Assembly: GCF_018607995.1 (NCBI RefSeq)
Contig: NZ_JABBAL010000006.1
Coordinates: 90,366-154,365 of the forward strand
Reading direction: 5' to 3'
DNA from: Planktotalea sp.
Lineage (GTDB): Bacteria; Pseudomonadota; Alphaproteobacteria; Rhodobacterales; Rhodobacteraceae
DNA: 64,000 nt
Below are positions 23,370 to 37,978 of the stretch, piece by piece. A program made the translations under genes and the position numbers. The stretch's first letter is position 1, and each line of letters begins with the position of its first letter. The notes under the pieces are model-generated. The model ran no database searches. It had not been told where the DNA came from and worked only from the letters and a program-made list of their open reading frames with translations.

Positions 23370-24071
23370 TCAAACCGAAAGATAAGTGTCGCGCACCTCT
23401 GGGTGCGCGTTCAGCTCCCCAAGTGTGCCTTTGTATTTTGCGGTACCACTTTCAATGATCACAACACGGTCGGCCACGGCCTGCGCAAAGTGTAAGTTTT
23501 GCTCAGACAAAAGCACCGTCAAACCGTCTTTCTTAAGGCGTAAAATGACTCGCGCCATTTCCTCGACAATCACGGGCGCAATACCCTCGGACGGCTCATC
23601 CAGAAGAATGAGGCTCGGATTGCCCATCAACGTACGCGCAATCGTCAGCATTTGTTGCTCGCCCCCTGATAACTCTTTGCCCCGATTGGTGCGTCGCTCT
23701 GCAAGGTTCGGGAACATATCAAACAGCATATCTTCGGACCATGTCACCGTCTCCTCACGCGCGGGCTGGCGCCCGACTTCAAGGTTCTCCATAACTGTCA
23801 AGTCGGTGAAAATACGCCTCTCTTCGGGCACATAACCAAGGCCCAACTTCGCGACTTTATGCGGTGCCATACGCGTAATGTCAGTGCCTTGGTACGTCAC
23901 CGACCCCGTTTGCGGCACGACAAGCTGCATCACAGATTTCATCGTCGTCGTTTTGCCCGCACCATTGCGTCCCAAGAGAGCAACCACTTGCCCACGTTCG
24001 ACATCAAAGCTCAGGTCATTCAAAACATGCGCCTTGCCGTAAAAACTGTTTACGCCTTTGATCTCAAGCAT
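23370..24071 (-). CDS. livF: Branched-chain amino-acid type ABC transporter ATPase (LivF family)
   Basis: MLEIKGVNSFYGKAHVLNDLSFDV, GRNGAGKTTTMK, LSGGEQQML; ATG at 24071 overlaps the end of livG. Confidence 0.88.
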   Translation of the reverse strand: MLEIKGVNSFYGKAHVLNDLSFDVERGQVVALLGRNGAGKTTTMKSVMQLVVPQTGSVTYQGTDITRMAPHKVAKLGLGYVPEERRIFTDLTVMENLEVGRQPAREETVTWSEDMLFDMFPNLAERRTNRGKELSGGEQQMLTIARTLMGNPSLILLDEPSEGIAPVIVEEMARVILRLKKDGLTVLLSEQNLHFAQAVADRVVIIESGTAKYKGTLGELNAHPEVRDTYLSV

Positions 24072-24843
24072 TGGCGCTCTCCCCGTCGTGCTTAAAGAGC
24101 GTCCCACCACCAAGATAAACCTCTCGCACACGGTCGTCATTGCGGATCTCATTGACCGATCCATTGGCGATCAAAGCACCGCGATTAAGGACCATAACAC
24201 GGTGGGCATGTGCAAAAACGACGTCCATGTCATGCTCTGTGAACAAAACACTCACGCCGCGGCTCTCTACAATGTCAGCAGTCAGCTGCATCAGAGCAAT
24301 GCGTTCTGCCGGAGCCATTCCGGCAGTAGGTTCGTCCATCAGCAAAAGCGTCGGATCGTGGGCCAAAGCGATCGCCAGTTCGAGACGTTTCAGATCCCCA
24401 TAGGCAAGAACAGCGCAGTGACGTTCCGATTGATCCGCCATCGCCACGAGATCGAGTAATCCCATCGCCTCATCGCGGTACATCTGATACGCGCGGGGCA
24501 AAAGTGAATAGATCTTCTTATGATGCGAGATCAGCGCCATCTGCACATTCTCGATCACTGTCATCGACGCATACGTCCCCGTAATCTGAAACGTGCGCCC
24601 AACCCCAAGCCGCCAAATCTGTCGTGGTTTCAATCCCTTAAGGTCTCTGCCATTCAAGGTCACCGTCCCCGCAGACGATTTGAGTTGCCCCATAAGCATG
24701 TTAAAACACGTGCTTTTGCCTGCACCATTCGGCCCGATCAGCGCCAGCAACTCGCCTTTTTGAAGCTCGAACGAAACATCATCCACCGCTTGAATTGCGC
24801 CAAACGCTTTGCTCAATCCTTTGACTTCCAGAACCGCGCTCAT
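24064..24843 (-). CDS. livG: Branched-chain amino-acid type ABC transporter ATPase (LivG family)
   Basis: MSAVLEVKGLSKAFGAIQAVDDVSF, GPNGAGKSTCFN; ATG overlaps the TGA of the permease gene. Confidence 0.88.
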   Translation of the reverse strand: MSAVLEVKGLSKAFGAIQAVDDVSFELQKGELLALIGPNGAGKSTCFNMLMGQLKSSAGTVTLNGRDLKGLKPRQIWRLGVGRTFQITGTYASMTVIENVQMALISHHKKIYSLLPRAYQMYRDEAMGLLDLVAMADQSERHCAVLAYGDLKRLELAIALAHDPTLLLMDEPTAGMAPAERIALMQLTADIVESRGVSVLFTEHDMDVVFAHAHRVMVLNRGALIANGSVNEIRNDDRVREVYLGGGTLFKHDGESANA

Positions 24844-26699
24844 GCCTGATCCTCCCGCTTGATAAAGCCGATCCTTTCGGCCCATTTGCGCAAGGTCCCC
24901 GCAATACCATCAGGCGCGAGAATCACGACGAAGATAATGAGCAAGCCAAGTAACAAGCGCCAATATTCAAAGCGCGTGATGTAGTCTTTTGCACCCTCTA
25001 GTGCTGCCCCACCTACGACGCCCCCTGCGAGGGTTTTGACACCACCAAGGAAGACGACAATCAACGCATCAAAACTGCGCGCGATTTCTAATTCATTTGG
25101 GAAGATTGACCCTTTGGAGAAGACAAACAGCCCTCCCGCGATCCCCGCCATCGCCCCTGCGAAACCGAAAGCAACCCATTGCACATGCTTGGTGTTGATG
25201 CCCGTCGCCTCCGCCTGCCTTGCGGAATCGCGCGCGCCGCGTAGGGCGTAGCCAAAAGGTGAATGCGCAGTGTGGCGGAGAAGGATGATCCCCCCGATGC
25301 ACAGCACCAGCGCAAGGTAGTAAAACGTCGTCGTCCCTGACGCCCACTCGGACGGCCAGATGTCCACCAGACCGTCATCGCCCCCTGTGAAATCGCCCCA
25401 TTGGAAGACCAGCGACCAAAGAAGCTGCGCGAAGGCGAGCGTGAGCATTGCGAAATAAACGCCGGTCAGGCGCAGACAGACCCAGCCGAAAATGATTGCT
25501 GTGAGACCAGCCGCAAGCGGTGCAAGGATCAGCGCCAGCTCCATCGGTGTGCCTGCGTATGTCACCAGAAGTGCCGCCGCATAGGCGCCGCCGCCGAAGT
25601 AGGCCGCATGACCAAAGGAAACGAGACCGCCAAGGCCCAAAAGAAAGTGCAACGACGCCGCGAAAAGACAGAAGATCGCGATGTCCGTGATCAGGACAAG
25701 AATGAAACTATCGCCCACCAGCGGCAAAAGCCCAAGCAGGACCAAGCCCACCACGACAATCATTCGCGCAGTTTGCCCCGCGGGTTTGATCGGGCGTTCT
25801 GGCTCGCCTACTTGGCCATGCTCGCCCGCGACTTCCTCACGACCAAACAGTCCAAAGGGGCGGAAAATCAGCACCACCACCATAACAACGAACATCAAAG
25901 CAAGGGTGGACTGCGGCAGGTAATTTACCCCGAATACGTTGAGCACGGAGATGAGCACAGCCGCCACATAAGCGCCCGGCAAGGACCCCATGCCGCCAAT
26001 CACGACCACCACGAAGATGGCCGAGAGAATGTTGAAATCCATTAACAGGTCCGCGCCACCTTTGGGCAATTGTACAGCACCGCCAAGACCCGCCAAAGCG
26101 CAACCGAGGAAGAAAACACCAGTAAACAGCCACGCCTGATTGACGCCCAATGCTCCAACCATTTCACGGTCTTGCGTCGCTGCGCGCACGAGAATTCCTG
26201 TGCGTGTCTTGGTGATCAACCACCACAAAGCAAAAGCCACGAAAGGGGTTAAGGCGATCAAAGCGAGGTCATATTTCGGCACAGGCTCACCCATGATCCG
26301 GATGATCCCTTTCAACCCTGGCGCGCGCGGTCCCAAGAAATCATCCGCGCCCCATACCAACAGCGTGAGGTCTTGGATAACAAGAATGACACCGAAGGTG
26401 GCGACCAATTGGAACAGCTCAGGCGCTTTATATACAGGGCGCAAGACCAGCATTTCAACGATGATACCAATGATACCGACGACGAGGCCAGCCAACAGGA
26501 TCGACGCCCAAAAGCCGAACCCGCCCGGCAAGACCTGCATGAAGGAATATCCTACATACGCGCCGAGCATGTAGAATGAGCCATGTGCGAAATTGACGAT
26601 GCGCGTGACACCGAAAATCAACGACAGGCCAGAGGCGACCATGAACAGCGCGCTCGCATTGGCGAGCCCTGTGAGAATTTGCGCAATGAAAAGACCCAT
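24840..26699 (-). CDS. Fused LivH-LivM type ABC permease
   Basis: 619 aa: LivH-like half (GLSLIFGVTRIVNFAHGSFYMLGAYVGY) joined to LivM-like half (LGLGGLVSFGHAAYFGGGAYAAALL) by a hydrophilic linker. Confidence 0.9.
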   Translation of the reverse strand: MGLFIAQILTGLANASALFMVASGLSLIFGVTRIVNFAHGSFYMLGAYVGYSFMQVLPGGFGFWASILLAGLVVGIIGIIVEMLVLRPVYKAPELFQLVATFGVILVIQDLTLLVWGADDFLGPRAPGLKGIIRIMGEPVPKYDLALIALTPFVAFALWWLITKTRTGILVRAATQDREMVGALGVNQAWLFTGVFFLGCALAGLGGAVQLPKGGADLLMDFNILSAIFVVVVIGGMGSLPGAYVAAVLISVLNVFGVNYLPQSTLALMFVVMVVVLIFRPFGLFGREEVAGEHGQVGEPERPIKPAGQTARMIVVVGLVLLGLLPLVGDSFILVLITDIAIFCLFAASLHFLLGLGGLVSFGHAAYFGGGAYAAALLVTYAGTPMELALILAPLAAGLTAIIFGWVCLRLTGVYFAMLTLAFAQLLWSLVFQWGDFTGGDDGLVDIWPSEWASGTTTFYYLALVLCIGGIILLRHTAHSPFGYALRGARDSARQAEATGINTKHVQWVAFGFAGAMAGIAGGLFVFSKGSIFPNELEIARSFDALIVVFLGGVKTLAGGVVGGAALEGAKDYITRFEYWRLLLGLLIIFVVILAPDGIAGTLRKWAERIGFIKREDQA

Positions 26700-26727
26700 G
26701 CCCTGACCTTTGGTATTTTAGGGGGAA

Positions 26728-26777
26728 ACGGCCCGCCCTTTCAGGCGGACCGTGTTGTGATTTTTCGACGAAAAATC
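26728..26777 (-). terminator. Two adjacent inverted repeats between the SBP gene and the permease gene
   Basis: ACGGCCCGCC-ctttca-GGCGGACCGT (10-bp arms with one G:U) and GATTTTTCG-A-CGAAAAATC. Confidence 0.6.
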
Positions 26778-26783
26778 GCGCCC

Positions 26784-27992
26784 TTAGTTGCCGGAGCCGC
26801 GCAGCTGCATGACTTCCTCATCTGGCAAGGTGTAATCAGCGCCATCCTTATAGACCCAGTTTTCCAACGTGCCTTTGCCATCTTTCAAAGCGATTGTGCC
26901 AACGTATGCACCCATCGTTGCTTGGTGATCTTGCGAGCGGAACTTAATGTCGCCTACGGGCGTGCTCACTGGCAAATCGGCAAACGCCGCGCGGATCGCT
27001 TCGCTATCCGTGGAGCCTGCCTTTTCCAACACAGCCACGATAGATTGCACCGTCATATAACCCACCAATGAACCAATACGCGGGTGATCGTCGTATTTCG
27101 CCATATACGCATCAACGAAAATTTTGCCCGATCCTTCGGTGATTTCGGACCAAGGATAGCCCGTCACAATCCAGCCCTCAGGTGCTTCATCACCAAGCGG
27201 GTCCATATATTCAGGTTCGCCAGATAAAAGGCCATAGACATTACGCCCTTCAAAGAGCCCACGTGTGCCGCCTTCGCGAACAAACTTCGCAAGATCACCA
27301 CCAAAAGTCACGTTGTAGATTGCATCTGGCTTTGCTCGCTCAATCGCTTGCGCTTCTGCACCTGCGTCGATCTTGAACAACGCGGGCCACTGCTCTGCCA
27401 CGAACTCCACTTCGGGCTTTAGCTTGGTCAAAGCTTTCTTAAACGCAGCGACCGCGTCTTTGCCGTACGCGTAGTTGGGCGCAATGGTTGCATAGCGAGT
27501 CGCATCAGTTTTCGCAGCTTCCTCGGCCAACATCGCTGCTTGCATATATGTGGAAGAGCGCAAACGGAACGTATAGTCATTGCCCTTAGACCAAGTGATT
27601 GCATCTGCAAGCGGCTCGGACGCAAGATAGACGTACTTCTTCTCCGCCGCGAGCGAGCTAATCGCCAAGCCCACGTTGGACAAGATCGTCCCCGTGAGCA
27701 TCACAGCGCCTTCGCGCGTCATCAGCTCTTCGGCGATTTTCACCGCTTCGCCGGGCTTTCCTTGGTCATCGCGAAAGATGAATTCCAGCGGTTTGCCCAT
27801 AACGCCACCAGCCGCGTTGACCTCTTCCAGCGCCATCTCAATGCCAAGTTTATAGGGCCCCGCAAAGGCCGCGAGACGCTTGTAGTGGTTGATCTCACCA
27901 ATCTTGATCGTGTCCTCAGCAAGTGCCGGCAGACCGACGGCCGCAATCGCAGCTGCGCCTACAAGGCTTTTCAAAAATGTCTTTCTTTTCAT
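26784..27992 (-). CDS. ABC transporter substrate-binding protein (LivK/amide-urea type periplasmic protein)
   Basis: Signal peptide, IKIGEINHYKRLAAFAGPYKLGIEMALEEVNAAGGVMGKPLEFIFRDDQGKPGEAVKIAEEL. Confidence 0.9.
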   Translation of the reverse strand: MKRKTFLKSLVGAAAIAAVGLPALAEDTIKIGEINHYKRLAAFAGPYKLGIEMALEEVNAAGGVMGKPLEFIFRDDQGKPGEAVKIAEELMTREGAVMLTGTILSNVGLAISSLAAEKKYVYLASEPLADAITWSKGNDYTFRLRSSTYMQAAMLAEEAAKTDATRYATIAPNYAYGKDAVAAFKKALTKLKPEVEFVAEQWPALFKIDAGAEAQAIERAKPDAIYNVTFGGDLAKFVREGGTRGLFEGRNVYGLLSGEPEYMDPLGDEAPEGWIVTGYPWSEITEGSGKIFVDAYMAKYDDHPRIGSLVGYMTVQSIVAVLEKAGSTDSEAIRAAFADLPVSTPVGDIKFRSQDHQATMGAYVGTIALKDGKGTLENWVYKDGADYTLPDEEVMQLRGSGN

Positions 27993-28028: not shown

Positions 28029-29096
28029 TTAATCGTGCTGCACAAAGGTCGGATGGATCGGCGCACCAAGATCTTCGGTCGCCTCAGCCTCCACAAGGTC
28101 GCGTATTCTTTTGCGATACACATTAGGTCCCTTGTCGATGGCAATTCTGATGGGTTTGCGCTTTTGCGGGCGCAGTTCTTCGATATGGATGGCCTCTAAC
28201 ACATCTTTGTCCTCGGCAAATGCGATGCGGAACATCTTGTCCATATTCGCAGAGGCGTCTTCGTCACCAACCGCCGTGTTGCGCAGGTGCATCCAGTGAT
28301 CAATCGTGTAGTCCTCAGTCACGGGTGTCACAAAGTGCAGAGCAAAAATGCGCACGCCTTTGTCGCGCTGATCCTCTTCGAGCTGCGCCTCAACCGCGAC
28401 ACTCCCGAAATCAATTACAGCGGTGCTGGGAAGGTGCAAATAGTAGTAGTGCCAGCGATCCACGTTACCCATGAAATTACCGAAGTTCTGGAAAAACCCA
28501 ACCGGTGCAGAATCTTTGATCCAACGCCACGCAACGATCTGATCCCCAGAGGTCGACACATGCACAGGAACGTTCTCAGAAGCCGCACTACCAAGCGTCG
28601 TGGGGTGAACAAAACTTACATGCGCGGGATCAACAAGGTTCTCAGCCACGTTCAGATAATTGGCTTTGAGATGGAGCCCGTCGCCGTGATGCGCGTGCCA
28701 ATTCGGATCCCTGAACTCGGGCATATCAAACACAGGTGTGTCCGCGGCAAGCGCTGCTTCGCCGGGCCAAATCCAGACAATCCCATGCGCCTCATGAACG
28801 GGAAATGTCTCCACATAGGCAGACGCGGGCAAGTTATCTTGCCCCGGAACCCGCACGCATTTGCCGTCCGTTCCGAAAGTCATACCGTGATAGCCGCATT
28901 GCACCGTATCACCAATGCGCTTGCCCTTAGACAGCGGCAACAGACGATGTGGGCAGCGATCCTCCAGCGCAATAATCTGGCCGTCAGAGGAGCGAAACAT
29001 CACCAAGTTTTGCTCTGTGATAGTAATCGCGCGCAAGTCTTCGCCGAAATCCTTGGACCAACCGGCCACGTACCACGCGTTGCGCACAAACGGCAT
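28029..29096 (-). CDS. Rieske 2Fe-2S aromatic ring-hydroxylating oxygenase, VanA-like
   Basis: MPFVRNAWYVAGWSKDF start, Rieske motif CPHRLLPLSKGKRIGDTVQCGYH, mononuclear iron region NLVDPAHVSFVH. Confidence 0.9.
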   Translation of the reverse strand: MPFVRNAWYVAGWSKDFGEDLRAITITEQNLVMFRSSDGQIIALEDRCPHRLLPLSKGKRIGDTVQCGYHGMTFGTDGKCVRVPGQDNLPASAYVETFPVHEAHGIVWIWPGEAALAADTPVFDMPEFRDPNWHAHHGDGLHLKANYLNVAENLVDPAHVSFVHPTTLGSAASENVPVHVSTSGDQIVAWRWIKDSAPVGFFQNFGNFMGNVDRWHYYYLHLPSTAVIDFGSVAVEAQLEEDQRDKGVRIFALHFVTPVTEDYTIDHWMHLRNTAVGDEDASANMDKMFRIAFAEDKDVLEAIHIEELRPQKRKPIRIAIDKGPNVYRKRIRDLVEAEATEDLGAPIHPTFVQHD

Positions 29097-29155
29097 ATCT
29101 AGACTTCCCCTCAGGTCTTGGCAGACATCCCAAGTTGGCACCAAAAACTTGTTCG

Positions 29156-29166
29156 TTGTCAAACAA
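29156..29166. promoter_or_regulatory. Candidate operator in the Rieske/MarR divergent intergenic region
   Basis: TTGT-caa-ACAA inverted repeat about 45 bp upstream of the MarR ATG. Confidence 0.35.
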
Positions 29167-29209
29167 ATTATGCGCGCTTATCGTTGCATTATCAGGATGA
29201 GGAATGTGA

Positions 29210-29635
29210 ATGGCTCAGAACAAGGCGGAAAGTGCGTACAGGCTCGAGGACCAGATCGGCTTTCGACTGCGCTTGGCCAATCAAAAACACTTAGAGCTGT
29301 TTGCAGAACACATGCCCGAGGCGACCCCAACGCAATTCGCTATACTCGCGCGGCTCTATTTTGATGGATCTTTGTCTCAAAATCACCTTGGGCGGCGGGT
29401 TGGGATGGATGCGGCGACAACCAAAGGCGTCGTGGATCGGTTGCGCAGCAAAGGTTTGGTACAAAGCACGCCTTCAAAGACGGATTTGCGGCGGTTAGAG
29501 ATTTCGCTGACAGAGCAAGGGCGCGCCTTTGCGAAAAGTGCCATCGAGCGCGCCCAATTGATTTCGCAGCAAACCACAAAAAACCTAAGTGCGCGCGAGA
29601 CTGAGCGCCTTTTAGCGCTGCTCGACAAACTCTGA
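29210..29635 (+). CDS. MarR family transcriptional regulator
   Basis: LTPTQFAILARLYFDGSLSQNHLGRRVGMDAATTKGVVDRLRSKGLVQSTPSKTDLRRLEISLTEQG-like wHTH region. Confidence 0.92.
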   Translation: MAQNKAESAYRLEDQIGFRLRLANQKHLELFAEHMPEATPTQFAILARLYFDGSLSQNHLGRRVGMDAATTKGVVDRLRSKGLVQSTPSKTDLRRLEISLTEQGRAFAKSAIERAQLISQQTTKNLSARETERLLALLDKL

Positions 29636-29661: not shown

Positions 29662-30246
29662 TCACCGCAGCCCGTCTTTACCAATCGCATCGCTATGCGT
29701 AAGACCGCCAACACGGGGCAGTGGACGTCCACTATCTGTCACCGCAATAGCCACTAAAATCTCATTCGCACGCGGCGCATCATTCAAACGCACTTCGACG
29801 CCATCGAAGTGGGAACGCACATAGGCGGCATCTTTATGGCCCAGCGGCACATCCAAGTCCTGCCCTGGTCCGCCCATTTTCTTTGAAGACGGCACCAAGG
29901 CCGCACCTTTTTCTACTTCATTGCGTAACGGGGCACCCATTTTCGGGTGCAGTAACGCCGCCGCGTGTTCTAACTCGCCGTTATCACCAACCATCGCAGC
30001 TTTGCCGTAGCTTTCCGCTTGATCCGGTGTGATGCCCAGCGCTTTGACACACCGTTTTCCCAACGTTTCACCAAGCTCTGCGCCAATCTCCATCAAAGGC
30101 GAAAGATCCTCAACGTATTCCCCCGCAAACGGGTTCGCGATAACTGCGACAGCTACCGCTTTGCGAGTCGCGGGCGCGACGGCACGCCCTGCTTCTTGGT
30201 GTGTTTCCTCGACCCAAACGGCGATCTTGCGAATATCTGCACTCAT
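29662..30246 (-). CDS. AA_synth family protein (PF06684, former DUF1185), copy 1
   Basis: IRKIAVWVEETHQEAGRAVAPATRKAVAVAVIANPFAGEYVEDLSPLMEIG; tandem paralogue of the next gene. Confidence 0.82.
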   Translation of the reverse strand: MSADIRKIAVWVEETHQEAGRAVAPATRKAVAVAVIANPFAGEYVEDLSPLMEIGAELGETLGKRCVKALGITPDQAESYGKAAMVGDNGELEHAAALLHPKMGAPLRNEVEKGAALVPSSKKMGGPGQDLDVPLGHKDAAYVRSHFDGVEVRLNDAPRANEILVAIAVTDSGRPLPRVGGLTHSDAIGKDGLR

Positions 30247-30827
30247 CGTAGACCATCCTCCCCTTTAATATCTTTAGCAGCGAGACCCCCTGCGCGGTCA
30301 TGTACGCGTGCACCCGTGCTCATCACCAAAACAAAGGCCAATTCATTGGCACGCGGCGCGTCGTTCATTCCAACTTCCATGGCATCGAAATGCCCACGCA
30401 CGTAGGAGGCATTGATATGCGTGATCGGCACATCAAGACGCACGCCCGCAGCACCCACTTTCTTCGTGGAGGGCACAATCGCCTTCGCATCACCCAAAAG
30501 CTCACGCATCGCATAGCCCCCAGGCGCATGCCAAAGCGCACCATGTTCCAACTCGCCCGCGGTGCCGATGATAGAGCCTTTACCATACCCTTCGATCACA
30601 GACGCATCACCACCCAGCGCATCAATCAACTTTTGCGCCATCTCAAGGCCAAGCGGCTTCAGATCCTCCATAAAGGGTTGAATATCTTCGACATATTCTC
30701 CTGCATAGGGATTGGCGATCACCGCAACAACAGCGCCGCGTTTTTGCGGAGTATTGGCGCGCGGACCGCCTTCGTGAAAGACTTCTTCAATGACCGTTGC
30801 GATCTTGCGCACGACGACGTCAGGCAT
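30243..30827 (-). CDS. AA_synth family protein (PF06684, former DUF1185), copy 2
   Basis: VRKIATVIEEVFHEGGPRANTPQKRGAVVAVIANPYAGEYVEDIQPFMEDL; 4-bp overlap with copy 1. Confidence 0.82.
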   Translation of the reverse strand: MPDVVVRKIATVIEEVFHEGGPRANTPQKRGAVVAVIANPYAGEYVEDIQPFMEDLKPLGLEMAQKLIDALGGDASVIEGYGKGSIIGTAGELEHGALWHAPGGYAMRELLGDAKAIVPSTKKVGAAGVRLDVPITHINASYVRGHFDAMEVGMNDAPRANELAFVLVMSTGARVHDRAGGLAAKDIKGEDGLR

Positions 30828-31653
30828 GTTCCAGCACCTTTTCTGAGTTCAACTCTATTTGTCTACTTTGCCCGCGCAAATGCAAGCTTGCCGCTTGGAT
30901 AAGACCTTGGCTTTGCATGTGTCGCGCGCGTTGGACGCCATTTTGCAAAGCCCGATCGATCTCTTGCACATTCAATTCTCCAACGCTCACAACAACTTCG
31001 CGGGATCCAAGATCTGCATCCTCTCGAATATCCTGCGCGGATACGCGACGTATTGACCGATGGTTCGAAAGATCGACAGCGCCAGCGATCAAAGTGGCCG
31101 CCACATCCGCCACGCTTGCGGTTTCAGCCAAAACCGTCACGCTCTCCGCAATCCCAAACGAAAGACTTCGTCCTCCCTGCCCGCTTGTCGCGATGCCGCG
31201 CACTTTGCTTTGCGCATCGAGGGTAATCTTGCCAAGCGCCGCGCCACCAAGGCCTGCCATCGCAACGTTAAACGTAGCATCACCAGACAGATGCAGCGCA
31301 ATGTCGCCACCGTTATTCACATAAGCGCGCTTTACATCGGCAGTATGTAGCATTGCGTCTAAAACCGTCTCCGCGACCGCGCCAGCGACACCTGCCATAG
31401 GCGTCACAAAGCCTTCATGCGCTTGCGCCGCCTCCCACATCTTGCGCGCAACCGCCCCTTTCGGCGCTGGCCCATCGCACAACCGCAAAAGATCAATCTC
31501 GTTCATCAGCTCTGCCAACACAGTGTTCAAACGAGTTTCTGCCCCATCAAAAGCAATATCGCGTGCGCCATCTACACCAATCACCAGATCAATCGGCCCG
31601 TGCTGCAAATGCAGACGACCCCTTGATAGCAAAGCACCTTGCACCTGCATCAT
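30820..31653 (-). CDS. UPF0280 family protein (ApbE-like)
   Basis: GPIDLVIGVDGARD, MAGVAGAVAETVLDAM, AYVNNGGDIALHLSG. Confidence 0.85.
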   Translation of the reverse strand: MMQVQGALLSRGRLHLQHGPIDLVIGVDGARDIAFDGAETRLNTVLAELMNEIDLLRLCDGPAPKGAVARKMWEAAQAHEGFVTPMAGVAGAVAETVLDAMLHTADVKRAYVNNGGDIALHLSGDATFNVAMAGLGGAALGKITLDAQSKVRGIATSGQGGRSLSFGIAESVTVLAETASVADVAATLIAGAVDLSNHRSIRRVSAQDIREDADLGSREVVVSVGELNVQEIDRALQNGVQRARHMQSQGLIQAASLHLRGQSRQIELNSEKVLEHA

Positions 31654-33131
31654 CCGCGCCCTTCGCGCTTGTTGCGTTGCGCTTGATGGGGGTCGGGTTG
31701 CGTTGCGACTGGCTCAACTTTACGCACCTCAGACGTAAGCACTGAGCTTACATCTTTGATGTGCTCCATATGCCCTCCCAACGCGTCGTAATCTTCGCGC
31801 CGCATGGTAAATTCGATTGGAGCGACCAAGGCAGGTGTCGGCACATAACCGAAGGAGTTCGTCGGCATTTCCATGACATCCACCATCACAGTGATCCCGC
31901 CTCCTGGCCAAACATAGGCCTCTGCGCCGCCGCATGACACATAGGTCAACGCATCCTTCACAGATCGCGTCAGACGTACAGGGTTTTCCGTGACCCCCGC
32001 GCGCAAAGACCCCCCTGCACCACCCATAAAGAGCACGGAACACAAGGAAGGCTCACAGTTTTCCGCAATCCGATCCGCGCTGATGCGAAGCGTCTCAGAA
32101 ATTTCGGCAGGCTGGGGCACGAGATCCTCATCCAGCTCGTAATAGGCCCATTGCTCCCCTGTAGTGGAGACCATTAAAAGGCGTAGTCCCGCCCAAGCCT
32201 TTTTTGCATCCGCAGGTTTCAGAATGGTCAGCGGATCTTCCACATCTGTGCCACCCCACCCTGTGCCCGGCTCGGCAACTTGAAAATACCGGCCGGGGGT
32301 AGAGCGACGCCCTTGGATCTTGATGCCGGAGGGACGCATATCAAGTTGCTTGCCTGCTTCATGTTCCGTCAACACGCCAGTGATGTGATCATCGACAACG
32401 ATCACTTCGTCCACATGTGGCTCCCATTGTTTGGCGAACATCCCAATTGCGGCGGATCCACAGCCAACGCGCATCAGTTTTTCACGCACATCGTTGATGA
32501 TCGGCGCGTGGCCCGCCTGCACGACGACCTCCGCGCCGTCATCAACTTGCAGCGTCACCGCTTCGCGATTGCATAGGTTCATCAGCGCATCACAGGTCAC
32601 ACGTCCTTCCGCTTTGGTGCTCCCTGTGAGGTGTTCAACTCCACCAAGCGACAGCATTTTGGAGCCATATTCAGACGTCATCACATGGCCAATCGCCTCG
32701 CCTTTGACCCGAACAACCGCGCGTTCATGGCCGATGAAGCGATCCGTATCGATTTTCACTTTCACGCCGCAGTAGGAATAGATTCCTTCGGTTACAACCG
32801 TCACCATGTCCGCGCCATCGACCTCTTGGCTGACGATAAAGGGCGCAGGTTTATAATCTGGATAGGTTGTGCCCGCGCCGACAGCCGTCACAAACGTGCG
32901 CTTGCCTTGAAGGATGTCACCATCCCAATCCTGCGCGTTCTCCCCTTGATCAAGAAAAGCCACCGCAGGCGCGCCACGCTCGATCACTGTTAAAGGATCG
33001 AGGCGCACCAATTCACCTGCATGATTTGCATAGCGATCACAGGCCCCAGCTTTTCCTTCGGCGATGAAACACATCACGGGGCAAGCATCACAGCGGATTT
33101 TCTCGGGTTTCACGCGTGCCGTTTCAATCAT
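31650..33131 (-). CDS. 6-hydroxynicotinate reductase homologue (iron-sulfur protein)
   Basis: N-terminal CDACPVMCFIAEGKAGACDRY (CX2CX3CX9C), GTTYPDYKPAPFIVSQEVDGADMVTVVTEGIYSYCGVKVKIDTDRFIG; family name recognised from the Eubacterium barkeri Hnr protein. Confidence 0.85.
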   Translation of the reverse strand: MIETARVKPEKIRCDACPVMCFIAEGKAGACDRYANHAGELVRLDPLTVIERGAPAVAFLDQGENAQDWDGDILQGKRTFVTAVGAGTTYPDYKPAPFIVSQEVDGADMVTVVTEGIYSYCGVKVKIDTDRFIGHERAVVRVKGEAIGHVMTSEYGSKMLSLGGVEHLTGSTKAEGRVTCDALMNLCNREAVTLQVDDGAEVVVQAGHAPIINDVREKLMRVGCGSAAIGMFAKQWEPHVDEVIVVDDHITGVLTEHEAGKQLDMRPSGIKIQGRRSTPGRYFQVAEPGTGWGGTDVEDPLTILKPADAKKAWAGLRLLMVSTTGEQWAYYELDEDLVPQPAEISETLRISADRIAENCEPSLCSVLFMGGAGGSLRAGVTENPVRLTRSVKDALTYVSCGGAEAYVWPGGGITVMVDVMEMPTNSFGYVPTPALVAPIEFTMRREDYDALGGHMEHIKDVSSVLTSEVRKVEPVATQPDPHQAQRNKREGRG

Positions 33132-35853
33132 ACCCAGCCTCCTTCAAAGCAGCGCGCACGCGGTGCGGCAATGCGGGAACATGGCGCAAGCGCACCCCTG
33201 TTGCATTGTGCACGGCGTTCAATATGGCCGGTGCTGTCGGAATTAAAGCGTGCTCCCCTAGACCTTTGGCACCGAAGGGGCCATGCGCGTCCGGCTCTTC
33301 GACAATCAACGTCTCAATCGGGGGAACATCGCCAATCGTCGGGATCAGATAGTCATGCAAATTGTCAGTGCGACCCGGGATAAATTCTTCCATCAACGCC
33401 ATGCCAAGCCCTTGCGCAACACCGCCTTGAACCTGTCCTTCAACAAGCAACGGATTGATCGCTTGGCCCACATCATGCGCAGCCACGATTTTGATGGGGT
33501 TGATCGTGCCAAGCTTGGTATTCACTTCGACCACCGCGAGATGCGCGGCATAGCCAAACTGCGCATAAGGCACGCCTTGGCCATTCTCATCGAGCGGTTC
33601 TGTAGGCGGATCATAACTCGCTACTGCGCGCATCACATAACCGTCCTCGCCCACATCCATGCGGGACAGTTCAATCCTGTGCGAACCGCTCATTTCGATG
33701 CTGCCATCCCCCAGCACAATCTGGGCATCCTCAGCTGCGTTCACCAAAGTCAGTACTTGGCGACGCAGACTTTCACCTGACAGTTTCGCTGCATTGCCAG
33801 TGACAAACGTCTGGCGCGAGGCGGATGTTTTGCCAGCATCGGGAGTGATGTCAGTATCTGCCCCGACTAACGCGACTTGATCCACCGCAACGCCAAACGC
33901 TTGCGCAAAGATCTGTGAAATCACTGTATTGGAGCCTTGGCCGATATCAACCGCACCCTGATGCAAGACCAACGTGCCATCTGCGCGTAGTCCGCATTTG
34001 ATCGTCGACGGGTTCGCCATGGAGGTATTCCCGCAGCCATACCAGCCCGCCGCGATCCCCACGCCGCGCTTTAGATAAGTGCTTCTTGCGTTAAACTGAG
34101 CACACGCTGCTTTGCCGCTTTCCCAAGCAGGGCGCAGCGCTTCAAGGCAGGCCTTTACGCCAACCCCTTGTTCGAACACTTGGCCAGACACCGTTGGCAC
34201 ACCGTTATCAAGCGCGTTTAGTATGCGGAACTCTAGCGCATCCATGCCGACGGCTGCGGCAAGTTCCTCGAACAGGCTCTCTTGTGCGATGGCCGATTGG
34301 GGGACCCCAAAACCACGAAATGCGCCTGAGGGCGGGCAATGGGTGTAAATTCCTTTCGACTGGGCGCGATAGTTGGGTATCCTGTAGGGGCCTGAAGCAT
34401 GCAGCGGTACGCGATTGGCAACTGTCGGACCCCAGCTGGCATAAGCACCCGTGTTGAAATCCCCAACAAAACGCAAACCCGTCAGCGTGCCATCATGGCG
34501 CACTCCGCCTTTGATCTCCATCCGCCCGGGATGGCGTTTGGTTGACGTCTCCATGCTCTCCACACGCGAATAACACATCCGCACGGGACGCCCCGTCACC
34601 ATTGCACCAAGGCAAACATAGGGATGTACTGTCAGATCCAGCTTGGAGCCAAAGCCACCGCCAACAGCGGTAGGAACGATGCGGATATCCTCTTCGTCGA
34701 GAGCAAGAATGTTGGCGAGCGCCTCTTGGTTCATCACAGGGCTTTGGGTGCAGATATGTAGGTGCAGACGGCCCTCAACCCTTTCCGCATAACCTGCTTC
34801 GGGTTCGATATAGGCGTGCTCGACAAAGGATGTCTCAAAGCTCCCACTCAAAACGATATCCGCCTCAGCAAGCCCCGCATCCACATCACCATGGGCAACG
34901 AAACCACCGCACATAACGTTGTTCTCATGGCCCGTGTGAAGCTGCGGCGCTTCATTCGCTTGCGCCTCTATGACGTCTTGGACAGCAGATAATTGCGTCC
35001 ATGTCACTGGAAAATCACCGATCCTGTACGCCGCAATCGTATCCGCCTCCCCTATTACCACGGCCACGGCTTCGCCTTCGAAACGCGTCTGGGTTTCGGC
35101 AAAGACAGGTTGGTCAATGAAGCCTGGAATTGTACCGAATAAGTTGTCGCCAGGGATATCTTTTGCGCTTAGGACCGCTTCGATCCCGTCAATCTTGCGC
35201 ACAACTCCGAGATCACCAAACTCAAACGTTGCGTGCGGATAAGGTGAACGGACCACAAGCGCCACCAAAGCCCCTTCTGGCGCAACATCATCGCCAAAAC
35301 GCTCTGATCCATCGACCTTGGTTTGTCCGTCGATACGCGCGATGCTTTCACCGACAGCCCCCCTAACGCCAACCTCAGGAATACCAGCACCAACCGCAAC
35401 AACCGCATCAATAATTTTACGATACCCCGTGCAGCGACACAACACGCCACCCAAAGCATCTTGAACCTGTGCGACGTTGGGGCTGGGCACGTCTCGCAAC
35501 AAGGCCGCAGCGCTGACAATCATACCCGGCGTACAAATCCCGCATTGCGCAGCTTGGTGCGCAGTGAAGCTCTGTTGCAAACGCCCGAGAGTATCCGGTG
35601 CCACGCCGCGCAGTGTTTGGACATCGCGGCCCTTGGCTTGAGCCGTCGACGTCAGGCAGGCACATACAGGCAACCCATCAATCAAAACCGTGCAGGCCCC
35701 ACAATCGCCCGCGTTACAGCCAACTTTGACGTCTTTAGCGTTTAACTCTTCACGCAAAACCGCGCTCAGCCGCGCGCTGCCATGTGCCGCACTTTGAACG
35801 GCCTCACCGTTCAAAGTAAATCCGATCAGCTCACCCTCGCTTCGCTTATCCAT
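33124..35853 (-). CDS. Molybdenum hydroxylase: fused 2Fe-2S small subunit and molybdopterin large subunit (xanthine/nicotinate dehydrogenase family)
   Basis: CNAGDCGACTVLIDG and CGICTPGM...CRCTGY two 2Fe-2S motifs fused to a CoxL-like domain (GGGFGSKLDL, GAFRGFGVPQ, ALGEHALIP-like GLGEHALIPTAPAI). Confidence 0.9.
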   Translation of the reverse strand: MDKRSEGELIGFTLNGEAVQSAAHGSARLSAVLREELNAKDVKVGCNAGDCGACTVLIDGLPVCACLTSTAQAKGRDVQTLRGVAPDTLGRLQQSFTAHQAAQCGICTPGMIVSAAALLRDVPSPNVAQVQDALGGVLCRCTGYRKIIDAVVAVGAGIPEVGVRGAVGESIARIDGQTKVDGSERFGDDVAPEGALVALVVRSPYPHATFEFGDLGVVRKIDGIEAVLSAKDIPGDNLFGTIPGFIDQPVFAETQTRFEGEAVAVVIGEADTIAAYRIGDFPVTWTQLSAVQDVIEAQANEAPQLHTGHENNVMCGGFVAHGDVDAGLAEADIVLSGSFETSFVEHAYIEPEAGYAERVEGRLHLHICTQSPVMNQEALANILALDEEDIRIVPTAVGGGFGSKLDLTVHPYVCLGAMVTGRPVRMCYSRVESMETSTKRHPGRMEIKGGVRHDGTLTGLRFVGDFNTGAYASWGPTVANRVPLHASGPYRIPNYRAQSKGIYTHCPPSGAFRGFGVPQSAIAQESLFEELAAAVGMDALEFRILNALDNGVPTVSGQVFEQGVGVKACLEALRPAWESGKAACAQFNARSTYLKRGVGIAAGWYGCGNTSMANPSTIKCGLRADGTLVLHQGAVDIGQGSNTVISQIFAQAFGVAVDQVALVGADTDITPDAGKTSASRQTFVTGNAAKLSGESLRRQVLTLVNAAEDAQIVLGDGSIEMSGSHRIELSRMDVGEDGYVMRAVASYDPPTEPLDENGQGVPYAQFGYAAHLAVVEVNTKLGTINPIKIVAAHDVGQAINPLLVEGQVQGGVAQGLGMALMEEFIPGRTDNLHDYLIPTIGDVPPIETLIVEEPDAHGPFGAKGLGEHALIPTAPAILNAVHNATGVRLRHVPALPHRVRAALKEAGYD

Positions 35854-36688
35854 GGCTTGCCTCCCGCAGGGCTTGCGCGATTAAAGTGGCAACTACATCG
35901 ACGCGATACTCTTTAGATCCGCGCACGTCATCGATAGGCGCTAAGGCAGAAAGATCCGCCTCCGCAAGTATCGCGTCGGTTTGCGTGAATGTTTGATTTT
36001 CCAAAGCTGCCTCGAGTGCTGAGAGTCTCTTTGCCACAGGCGAGCAAGATCCAACAGCAATCCGTACATCACTCAAGACGCCGTCGCGCAACGCGAATGC
36101 CACCGCAACCATAGCGATGGAAATTACCAAATATTTGCGCGCGCCCAATTTCACGAAAGCACTTTTGAGTGCTGCCGAAGTTTCTGGGACTATCACTGCA
36201 GTCACCATTTCGCCCTGATCCAAAGCCACGTGCCGCACGCCAGTAATGAAGGAGTCCAAAGGCACAACGCGGCACCCTTCCGTGCTGCAAATTTCAACTG
36301 ACGCATTGAGCGCAAGCAAAGGCGGCACTCCATCCGCGGCAGGGGACGCGTTGCAGAGGTTTCCCGCAATCGTTCCTGCATTTTGGATTTGCACTGAGCC
36401 AACGTCCCGCGCAGCAGCTTTCAACCCATCGAAAGCTGTGGGCAAGTTGGTTGCGATCACATCGCTCCATGTGCTGGCCGCGCCGATGCGCCAGCCGTCT
36501 TTGGTTTTCAAAATGCCGCGCAGAGCCGTAATCCGCGTCACGTCCAGAATATCGCACTCGATCGGACGTTCGCCCTGAGCCGGATACCAATCCGTACCGC
36601 CCGCAATAATGCTGAGTTCGCTCGCGTCCAAAGCGGCAAGCGCATCGTCTAGTGACATAGGTGTTAGATATTCCAAAACAGCCCTCAA
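35846..36688 (-). CDS. FAD-binding medium subunit of the molybdenum hydroxylase
   Basis: YLTPMSLDDALAAL, IIAGGTDWYP, QIQNAGTIAGNLCNASPAADGVPPLLAL CoxM-like FAD motifs. Confidence 0.9.
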   Translation of the reverse strand: MRAVLEYLTPMSLDDALAALDASELSIIAGGTDWYPAQGERPIECDILDVTRITALRGILKTKDGWRIGAASTWSDVIATNLPTAFDGLKAAARDVGSVQIQNAGTIAGNLCNASPAADGVPPLLALNASVEICSTEGCRVVPLDSFITGVRHVALDQGEMVTAVIVPETSAALKSAFVKLGARKYLVISIAMVAVAFALRDGVLSDVRIAVGSCSPVAKRLSALEAALENQTFTQTDAILAEADLSALAPIDDVRGSKEYRVDVVATLIAQALREASHG

Positions 36689-36694
36689 AACTTG

Positions 36695-36706
36695 TTTGTA
36701 TACGAA
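36695..36706. promoter_or_regulatory. Candidate operator between the molybdenum hydroxylase operon and enamidase
   Basis: TTTGTATACGAA, near-palindrome centred on GTATAC in the 117-bp divergent intergenic region. Confidence 0.4.
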
Positions 36707-36805
36707 TAGAATATTGCAACGAGGATTCTGTCAAATCCTTTCCTGCCCCCTCTTGATCGAAGCACCGCATCTGTTAGCGTTCAAATGAACTCGAAAGGAA
36801 CAATC

Positions 36806-37978
36806 ATGTCAGATGCCCCACAGAAACTTGTCATTCGCAACATCGGCCTGATGCTATCGGGCAAGATGGAAGCGCCCATCTACGAGGCTGATTGCATCAT
36901 CGCCTACGCTAGCAAAATTGCGGAGTGGGGTCGCGAGGCCGACATGAACCTAGAGGGCGCAAACACGGTGATCGACGCGAATGGCGTCACGCTGGCACCG
37001 GGTTTGATCGATAGCCATATCCACCCTGTGATTGGCGATTACACCCCACGCCAACAGCAGCTCCACTGGATCGACAGCACGCTGCACGGCGGCGTTACGA
37101 CACTAATTTCAGCGGGCGAAGTTCATATGCCTGGGCGTCCCAAGGACGTTGTCGGCCTAAAAGCCATGGCCATCGCAGCGCAGCGTTGGTACGAAAACTT
37201 TCGCCCTTCCGGCATGAAAGTCCACGCAGGCGCGCCGGTGATTGAGCATGGGATGGTCGAGCAAGATTTTAAAGACCTCGCAGATGCGGGCGTAACCTTG
37301 CTGGGCGAAGTCGGCCTTGGTACCGTTAAAGACGGTAAAACCGCGCAACAAATGGTCGGCTGGGCGCGTAAATACGGCATACAAAGTACGATCCACACAG
37401 GCGGGCCGTCGATTCCCGGCTCTGGTTTAATCGATGCGGATATGGTGATGGAAACCGGTACGGATGTTATTGGACATATCAATGGGGGGCATTCTGCCCT
37501 ACCCGACGATCAGATCATTTGCCTCTGCGAAAGCTGCAAAGCGGCGTTTGAGATTGTGCATAACGGAAATGAACGCGCCGCGGTTTTGACTGTGAACACG
37601 GCGCGTGAGTTGGGTAAACTGGATCAAGTGATCCTCGGCACGGACGGTCCCGCAGGCTCCGGTGTGCAACCGCTCGGAATTTTACGGATGATCGCCATGC
37701 TATCGGCCTTTGGCAATGTTCCTGCCGAAATCGCCTTTTGCTTCGGCAATGGCAACACATCACGACAACGCAACCTCGATACCGGCCTTATAGAAAAAGG
37801 AATGTGCGCGGACTTTGTGCTGATGGATCAGGCACAGCACGCACCCGGTAAGAATATTCTGGAAAGCGTTCAACTTGGAAACCTCCCCGGTGTTGGCATG
37901 ACTGTGATCGACGGTGTCGTCTGTTCTGGGCGTAGCAGAAACACGCCTCCCGCTTATCGTTTGCCGCAGGTTGTCTAG
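36806..37978 (+). CDS. Enamidase homologue (amidohydrolase superfamily)
   Basis: Reads closely like E. barkeri enamidase: APGLIDSHIHPVIGDYTPRQQQLHWIDSTLHGGVTTLISAGEVHMPGRPKD, HAGAPVIEHGM, GEVGLGTVKDG, HTGGPSIPGSG, GHINGGHSAL, SRNTPPA. AAGGAAC upstream of ATG 36806 (ORF opens at 36785). Confidence 0.88.
   Translation: MSDAPQKLVIRNIGLMLSGKMEAPIYEADCIIAYASKIAEWGREADMNLEGANTVIDANGVTLAPGLIDSHIHPVIGDYTPRQQQLHWIDSTLHGGVTTLISAGEVHMPGRPKDVVGLKAMAIAAQRWYENFRPSGMKVHAGAPVIEHGMVEQDFKDLADAGVTLLGEVGLGTVKDGKTAQQMVGWARKYGIQSTIHTGGPSIPGSGLIDADMVMETGTDVIGHINGGHSALPDDQIICLCESCKAAFEIVHNGNERAAVLTVNTARELGKLDQVILGTDGPAGSGVQPLGILRMIAMLSAFGNVPAEIAFCFGNGNTSRQRNLDTGLIEKGMCADFVLMDQAQHAPGKNILESVQLGNLPGVGMTVIDGVVCSGRSRNTPPAYRLPQVV

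Follow-up and report, generated by a model that had tools for sequence, protein, structure and literature searches.

In Pseudomonas putida KT2440, the NicAB/NicR pathway oxidizes 6-hydroxynicotinate to 2,5-dihydroxypyridine. A reductive route is followed in the Eubacterium barkeri fermentation, and its first three genes have reportedly been found in nine Proteobacteria. Nicotinate degradation via 6-oxo-1,4,5,6-tetrahydronicotinate (THON) was previously described for SG-6C and Azorhizobium caulinodans, and a nicotinate cluster that includes an ATP-binding cassette (ABC) transporter and a pair of conserved but uncharacterized proteins is carried by A. caulinodans ORS571, Bradyrhizobium japonicum USDA110, Rhodopseudomonas palustris HaA2, and SG-6C (PMC3511419). 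Here, we analyzed a 64,000-nucleotide stretch of a Planktotalea sp. genome (contig NZ_JABBAL010000006.1, positions 90,366 to 154,365; hereafter the window), in which six leftward genes running from 36688 to 29662 encode a two-gene molybdenum hydroxylase, a 6-hydroxynicotinate reductase (Hnr), a UPF0280 protein, and two AA_synth proteins, with an enamidase gene divergent from them. We read this locus as an aerobic reductive nicotinate-catabolism cluster, with a probability of about 0.8. An earlier note on the window had presented the aerobic occurrence as a surprise; it is not new, because it has been published for Azorhizobium and Bradyrhizobiaceae (PMC3511419). What is new is the strict pairing of UPF0280 with Hnr and the free swapping of other steps.

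In the proposed pathway, a Liv-type ABC transporter would import the substrate, the flavin adenine dinucleotide (FAD) subunit and the fused iron-sulfur/molybdopterin hydroxylase would convert nicotinate to 6-hydroxynicotinate, Hnr, an Fe-S flavoprotein, would reduce this to THON, and enamidase would open the ring to give 2-formylglutarate and ammonia. The carbon of 2-formylglutarate would then pass by decarboxylation and oxidation to glutarate and glutaryl-CoA, as in Azorhizobium, through enzymes whose genes lie elsewhere in the genome. UPF0280 would be bound to the Hnr step, most likely as a maturation factor, the AA_synth proteins would probably act on an enamine or aldehyde intermediate, and a MarR protein would control the cluster.

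The best relative of the enamidase among solved structures is the E. barkeri enamidase 2vun (E = 6.7e-103, 43% identity over 383 residues in a full-length alignment), and positions H67, H69, E164, H193, H220, and D276 of 2vun, which we take from family knowledge to be the metal ligands, are invariant across 32 enamidases. With the bimetal-site positions intact by comparison with the E. barkeri enzyme, the description of this divergent gene in the earlier note as a convincing enamidase homologue was borne out. The fused hydroxylase matches chains A, B, and D of the E. barkeri nicotinate dehydrogenase 3hrd (276, 216, and 112 bits; 604 summed), a match that is not specific by itself; its best single-chain match is an aldehyde oxidoreductase (1dgj, 386 bits). 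Hnr matched no Pfam or NCBIfam family, found no relative in the solved-structure search, and gave an AlphaFold model (mean predicted local distance difference test score 66) without a match in the PDB at E <= 0.001. Its identity is carried by its orthologues, which are labelled ‘6-hydroxynicotinate reductase’ in RefSeq plasmid records: Hnr is 60–97% identical to relatives that include proteins so annotated, the closest being those of Rhodobacteraceae HTCC2083 and Planktotalea (88–97%), and C14, C17, C21, C31, and five further cysteines are conserved at >=97% among 30 Hnr proteins. Residues 121–157 gave a weak but recurrent signal for a GcvT C-terminal barrel (best E 5.8e-4; E < 1 in 25 of the 30 members), and a relation of Hnr to ApbE was rejected after profile comparison gave none. 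In several marine strains of Sulfitobacter and Pseudosulfitobacter (loci L077, L082, and L084), the cluster lies on plasmids, and close to it is a gene for ferredoxin-NADP reductase, which probably supplies Hnr with electrons.

The nature of the substrate is illuminated by loci with a different first enzyme. The fused hydroxylase is swapped in 14 loci for proteins 51–100% identical to the NicA/NicB nicotinate dehydrogenase of locus L080, a label that is the depositors’ annotation and for which a curated model gave no confirmation. Hnr and UPF0280 stay in these 14 loci, as does AA_synth where the flanks reach. Because two different entry enzymes feed one reductase, this comparison favors nicotinate as the common substrate, and the suggestion in the earlier note that the substrate may be new loses ground. 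A different N-heterocycle, such as picolinate, a hydroxypyridine, or homarine, degraded by the three enzymes after repurposing and channeled into a new lower pathway, appears quite improbable to us. Molybdenum hydroxylases are promiscuous as a family, no catabolic role is known for either UPF0280 or AA_synth, and AA_synth is also found in another cluster, with a flavin-monooxygenase; against this, NicAB can stand in for the hydroxylase, Hnr is highly conserved, and the enamidase retains its metal site. Homarine catabolism, moreover, is reported to involve Mgd (PMC13390433), for which the nicotinate route has no need.

The distribution of UPF0280 ties it to the reductase. A single draw of 399 Pseudomonadota genomes yielded Hnr in 33, and UPF0280 scored above its cut-off in exactly the same 33, always adjoining Hnr. 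AA_synth was found in 60 of the 399 genomes, comprising 32 of the 33 with Hnr and 28 without it; the sole genome with Hnr and UPF0280 that has no AA_synth is G139 (L118, L145). The earlier note had seen UPF0280 and AA_synth as replacements for the lower pathway, a view these counts do not support: because it tracks Hnr exactly, UPF0280 belongs with the reductase step, and AA_synth is often found where Hnr is absent.

As UPF0280 is a remote relative of ApbE (hhalign probability 95.7, E 1e-8 over 97 columns), we propose that it matures or supports Hnr. The E. barkeri Hnr is reported to carry a covalently bound flavin, and the search for ApbE in the window genome (3.13 Mb as searched, 94% complete) found none. 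Ser157 and Asp183 of UPF0280, which correspond to the Ser and Asp of ApbE, never vary, and no conserved His stands at the place of the catalytic His, leaving the ApbE triad (Vc Ser241, His257, and Asp285; PMC12052999) incomplete. Hnr, for its part, has no conserved ApbE target motif, with [ST]GA[ST] present in 1 of 30 sequences and the looser D..[ST]GA in 10 of 30. Since the catalytic His is missing, a flavin role for UPF0280 in Hnr maturation is put forward here as a possibility, and we give even odds to UPF0280 instead partnering Hnr in a structural or persulfide/Fe-S-related capacity. Such a partner would suit the absence of both the His and the target motif, and it has a precedent in Desulfovibrio vulgaris, where homocysteine synthesis depends on COG2122 together with DUF39 and NIL/ferredoxin; a persulfide role was suggested for COG2122, and its homology was judged to stop short of the flavin-binding region of ApbE (PMC5764234). 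The invariant Ser and Asp, the ApbE-free search of the window genome, and the covalent flavin reported for the E. barkeri Hnr, in contrast, count against such a partner. The exact pairing with Hnr gives a concrete, testable job to a family known mainly from the genetics of homocysteine synthesis.

Ring opening is one of the steps that appear to be exchangeable. Across a survey of 58 cluster loci, for which all statistics are uncorrected for kinship, enamidase was present in 30 and HyuAB in 11 (L038, L039, L040, L049, L051, L052, L078, L079, L080, L083, and L084), and the two never occurred together (Fisher p = 9e-5). A further 12 loci, with enamidase in seven and HyuAB in three, again never held both. 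The best family for HyuA and HyuB is caprolactamase alpha and beta, at 480 and 299 bits, below the cut-offs of 1000. Caprolactamase is an ATP-dependent lactam hydrolase. Because HyuAB is caprolactamase-like and THON is a lactam, HyuAB plausibly takes over the enamidase step.

For the lower pathway, the E. barkeri-type genes for 2-hydroxymethylglutarate dehydrogenase and dehydratase and for the B12-dependent methyleneglutarate mutase were, as the earlier note had remarked, not among the cluster genes, nor were they among the open reading frames (ORFs) of the 22–46 kb interval, to which this search was confined, the rest of the genome not having been searched. There is no need to invoke a new lower pathway, the possibility raised in that note: the published Azorhizobium route, which leads from THON to tricarboxylic acid cycle intermediates via glutarate (PMC3511419), fits and needs no B12 mutase. 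Two candidates for its enzymes are encoded in the window genome. One is a glutaryl-CoA dehydrogenase (633 bits to 3gnc); the other, a CoA-transferase, scores best against the model for succinate-glutarate CoA-transferase, at 563 bits, and does not reach the cut-off of 750. A homologue 64% identical to this CoA-transferase lies ~50 bp behind the enamidase gene in Ruegeria, where it was seen in two genomes of the genus, and this placement supports a predicted lower pathway via glutarate in the window genome. An acyl-CoA dehydrogenase beside another CoA-transferase (L120/L129) was also considered for the glutarate step and ruled out, as the glutarate model is matched far better by the CoA-transferase at L119, and the enzyme at L124 is clearly a glutaryl-CoA dehydrogenase.

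Several points weigh against assigning the locus to nicotinate catabolism. Molybdenum hydroxylases and amidohydrolases switch substrate easily. The readable Bradyrhizobium-like clusters use NicAB and not the fused hydroxylase, and the glutarate genes of the window genome are unlinked to the cluster and may also serve lysine breakdown. Finally, the Hnr proteins of SG-6C and E. barkeri are 42% identical, a second-hand figure (PMC3511419).

The genetic layout confirms and extends what was first described. All named ORFs were present at their coordinates and on their strands (Table 1), and from these coordinates the six leftward genes overlap successively, from the FAD subunit gene onward, by 8, 8, 4, 8, and 4 bp, just as the earlier note had it; its enzyme identities and its single operon are likewise supported. 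The functional unit nonetheless exceeds the genes noted then, adding a MarR gene (29210–29635), a Rieske oxygenase gene (28029–29162), and a Liv-type ABC transporter (23370–27992), all of which belong to the conserved neighborhood. The cluster is not a chance assembly, because its gene order is kept in dozens of other genomes; the same core is found in Rhodobacteraceae, many of them marine, as well as in Hyphomicrobiales, Granulosicoccaceae, Comamonadaceae, and one Acidobacteriaceae metagenome-assembled genome. A short element, AAAACTTGTT, is common to both divergent promoter regions (window 36641–36800 and 29131–29230), and close versions are kept in four relatives (L007–L010). This element is a candidate MarR operator and is consistent with joint control of the unit by MarR.

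Table 1. Coordinates of the cluster genes and their neighbors in the window.
Feature	Coordinates	Strand	Basis and remarks
Enamidase (ring opening of 6-oxo-1,4,5,6-tetrahydronicotinate)	36785..37978	+	2vun match; amidohydrolase family; start at ATG 36785 or, alternatively, ATG 36806
FAD subunit of molybdenum hydroxylase	35846..36688	-	PF00941 (FAD_binding_5), PF03450 (CO_deh_flav_C); TTG start at 36688
Fused [2Fe-2S] and molybdopterin subunit, probable nicotinate 6-hydroxylase	33124..35853	-	PF00111/PF01799/PF01315/PF02738/PF20256 (Fer2/Fer2_2/MoCoBD)
6-hydroxynicotinate reductase (Hnr)	31650..33131	-	annotated orthologues; N-terminal C14/C17/C21/C31 Fe-S motif
UPF0280 (COG2122), ApbE superfamily, proposed Hnr maturation factor	30820..31653	-	NF003322, E 1.7e-96
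AA_synth (DUF1185) paralogue 1	30243..30827	-	PF06684; 3byq, E 1.7e-59
AA_synth (DUF1185) paralogue 2	29662..30246	-	PF06684; blastp 82% identity to SPO0826 (2qtp)
MarR-family regulator, divergent from Rieske gene	29210..29635	+	PF01047; kept in conserved neighborhood
Rieske monooxygenase of the dicamba O-demethylase/VanA type, putative upstream demethylase or hydroxylase	28029..29162	-	PF19112, PF00355; TTG start
ABC transporter substrate-binding protein, LivK type	26784..27992	-	PF13458
ABC transporter fused permease, LivHM type	24840..26699	-	ORF; conserved neighborhood; orthologue labelled as an ABC transporter permease
ABC transporter ATPase, LivG type	24064..24885	-	ORF; conserved neighborhood
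ABC transporter ATPase, LivF type	23370..24164	-	ORF; conserved neighborhood

The Rieske gene raises the question of what enters the pathway. Its product is related to the solved structure of DdmC (3gb4, E 1.1e-39), with the N-demethylases NdmA and NdmB among its solved relatives, and the gene is present in 20 of the 58 loci, in most of which it separates the core operon from the ABC transporter. A DdmC-like oxygenase beside the core may feed N-methylated substrates into the route. The true entry substrate could even be a pyridine carboxylate bearing an N-methyl group or another decoration, such as trigonelline (N-methylnicotinate), from which the Rieske oxygenase would remove the methyl group before an unchanged nicotinate route, a proposal that we regard as possible but on the unlikely side. 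It draws on the NdmA/NdmB relatives and on the confinement of the Rieske gene to one transporter type (19 of 27 loci versus 0 of 11 with the other type, among loci with a recognizable transporter), counts that share the lack of kinship correction. The gene is, however, missing from most clusters, including that of Ruegeria pomeroyi, and in the window no dedicated reductase adjoins it. In L012 (Seohaeicola) and L015 (Lutimaribacter), the Rieske ORF looks truncated or frameshifted. A composite scenario, in which Hnr has in UPF0280 its dedicated enzyme for cofactor attachment or maturation, with an ApbE-like fold that lacks the His base and acts at a non-ApbE motif, ring opening alternates between enamidase and HyuAB, and a Rieske demethylase feeds in N-methylnicotinate in marine bacteria, is tentative, and taken as a whole we think it doubtful.

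Both AA_synth paralogues match DUF1185 structures, whose fold is chorismate-mutase-like (PMC2954203); in a fold search, their own family alone was significant (3byq and 2qtp), with a Rid-family match at E 0.12 that is no more than a lead. The family member SPO0826 had been tied to amino-acid metabolism through neighboring branched-chain transporter genes (PMC2954203). Because our map of that locus (L159) places this transporter within a nicotinate-type cluster, the amino-acid reading of SPO0826 is probably misplaced. One Ruegeria genome (G751) encodes an AA_synth that agrees residue for residue with SPO0826 over its solved stretch, and this genome, most likely R. pomeroyi DSS-3, holds the complete cluster (C1, about 851.4–866.0 kb). 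The predicted reductive nicotinate route is thereby put into marine Rhodobacteraceae, including what looks like this model strain, a tractable lab organism. In other Rhodobacteraceae (L110–L114, e.g., L113:5989-10788), AA_synth occurs without Hnr near genes for an alpha/beta hydrolase, a flavin reductase, a luciferase-like monooxygenase, and an aldehyde dehydrogenase, and L113 and L114 additionally have a LysR-like gene; this is possibly another N-heterocycle pathway, for which homarine is a guess.

Compared with known systems, the window cluster resembles the P. putida KT2440 pathway in nicotinate 6-hydroxylation and in its MarR-type regulator and differs in the fate of 6-hydroxynicotinate, which is oxidized there and would be reduced here. 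It resembles the E. barkeri fermentation cluster in the types of its hydroxylase, Hnr, and enamidase (2vun and 3hrd homologues), whereas the molybdenum subunit is split in E. barkeri (3hrd A/B) and fused in the window, and the mutase and dehydratase genes are not in the window cluster; UPF0280 and AA_synth, for which the comparison covered the window side only, are present in the window cluster. The COG2122/UPF0280 proteins of Desulfovibrio and methanogens belong to the same family as that of the window and are likewise required together with a redox system of the iron-sulfur type (PMC5764234), the partner being the DUF39 and NIL/ferredoxin homocysteine synthesis system in Desulfovibrio and Hnr in the window. 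Bradyrhizobium-like loci (L137 and L138, the genus being inferred only) carry NicAB and one AA_synth, in contrast to the fused FeS/Mo and FAD hydroxylase, two AA_synth genes, and Rieske gene of the window. With the clusters of Azorhizobium, Bradyrhizobium, R. palustris, and SG-6C, the window has in common the enzymes of the first three steps, the ABC transporter, two conserved unknown proteins, and an aerobic host.

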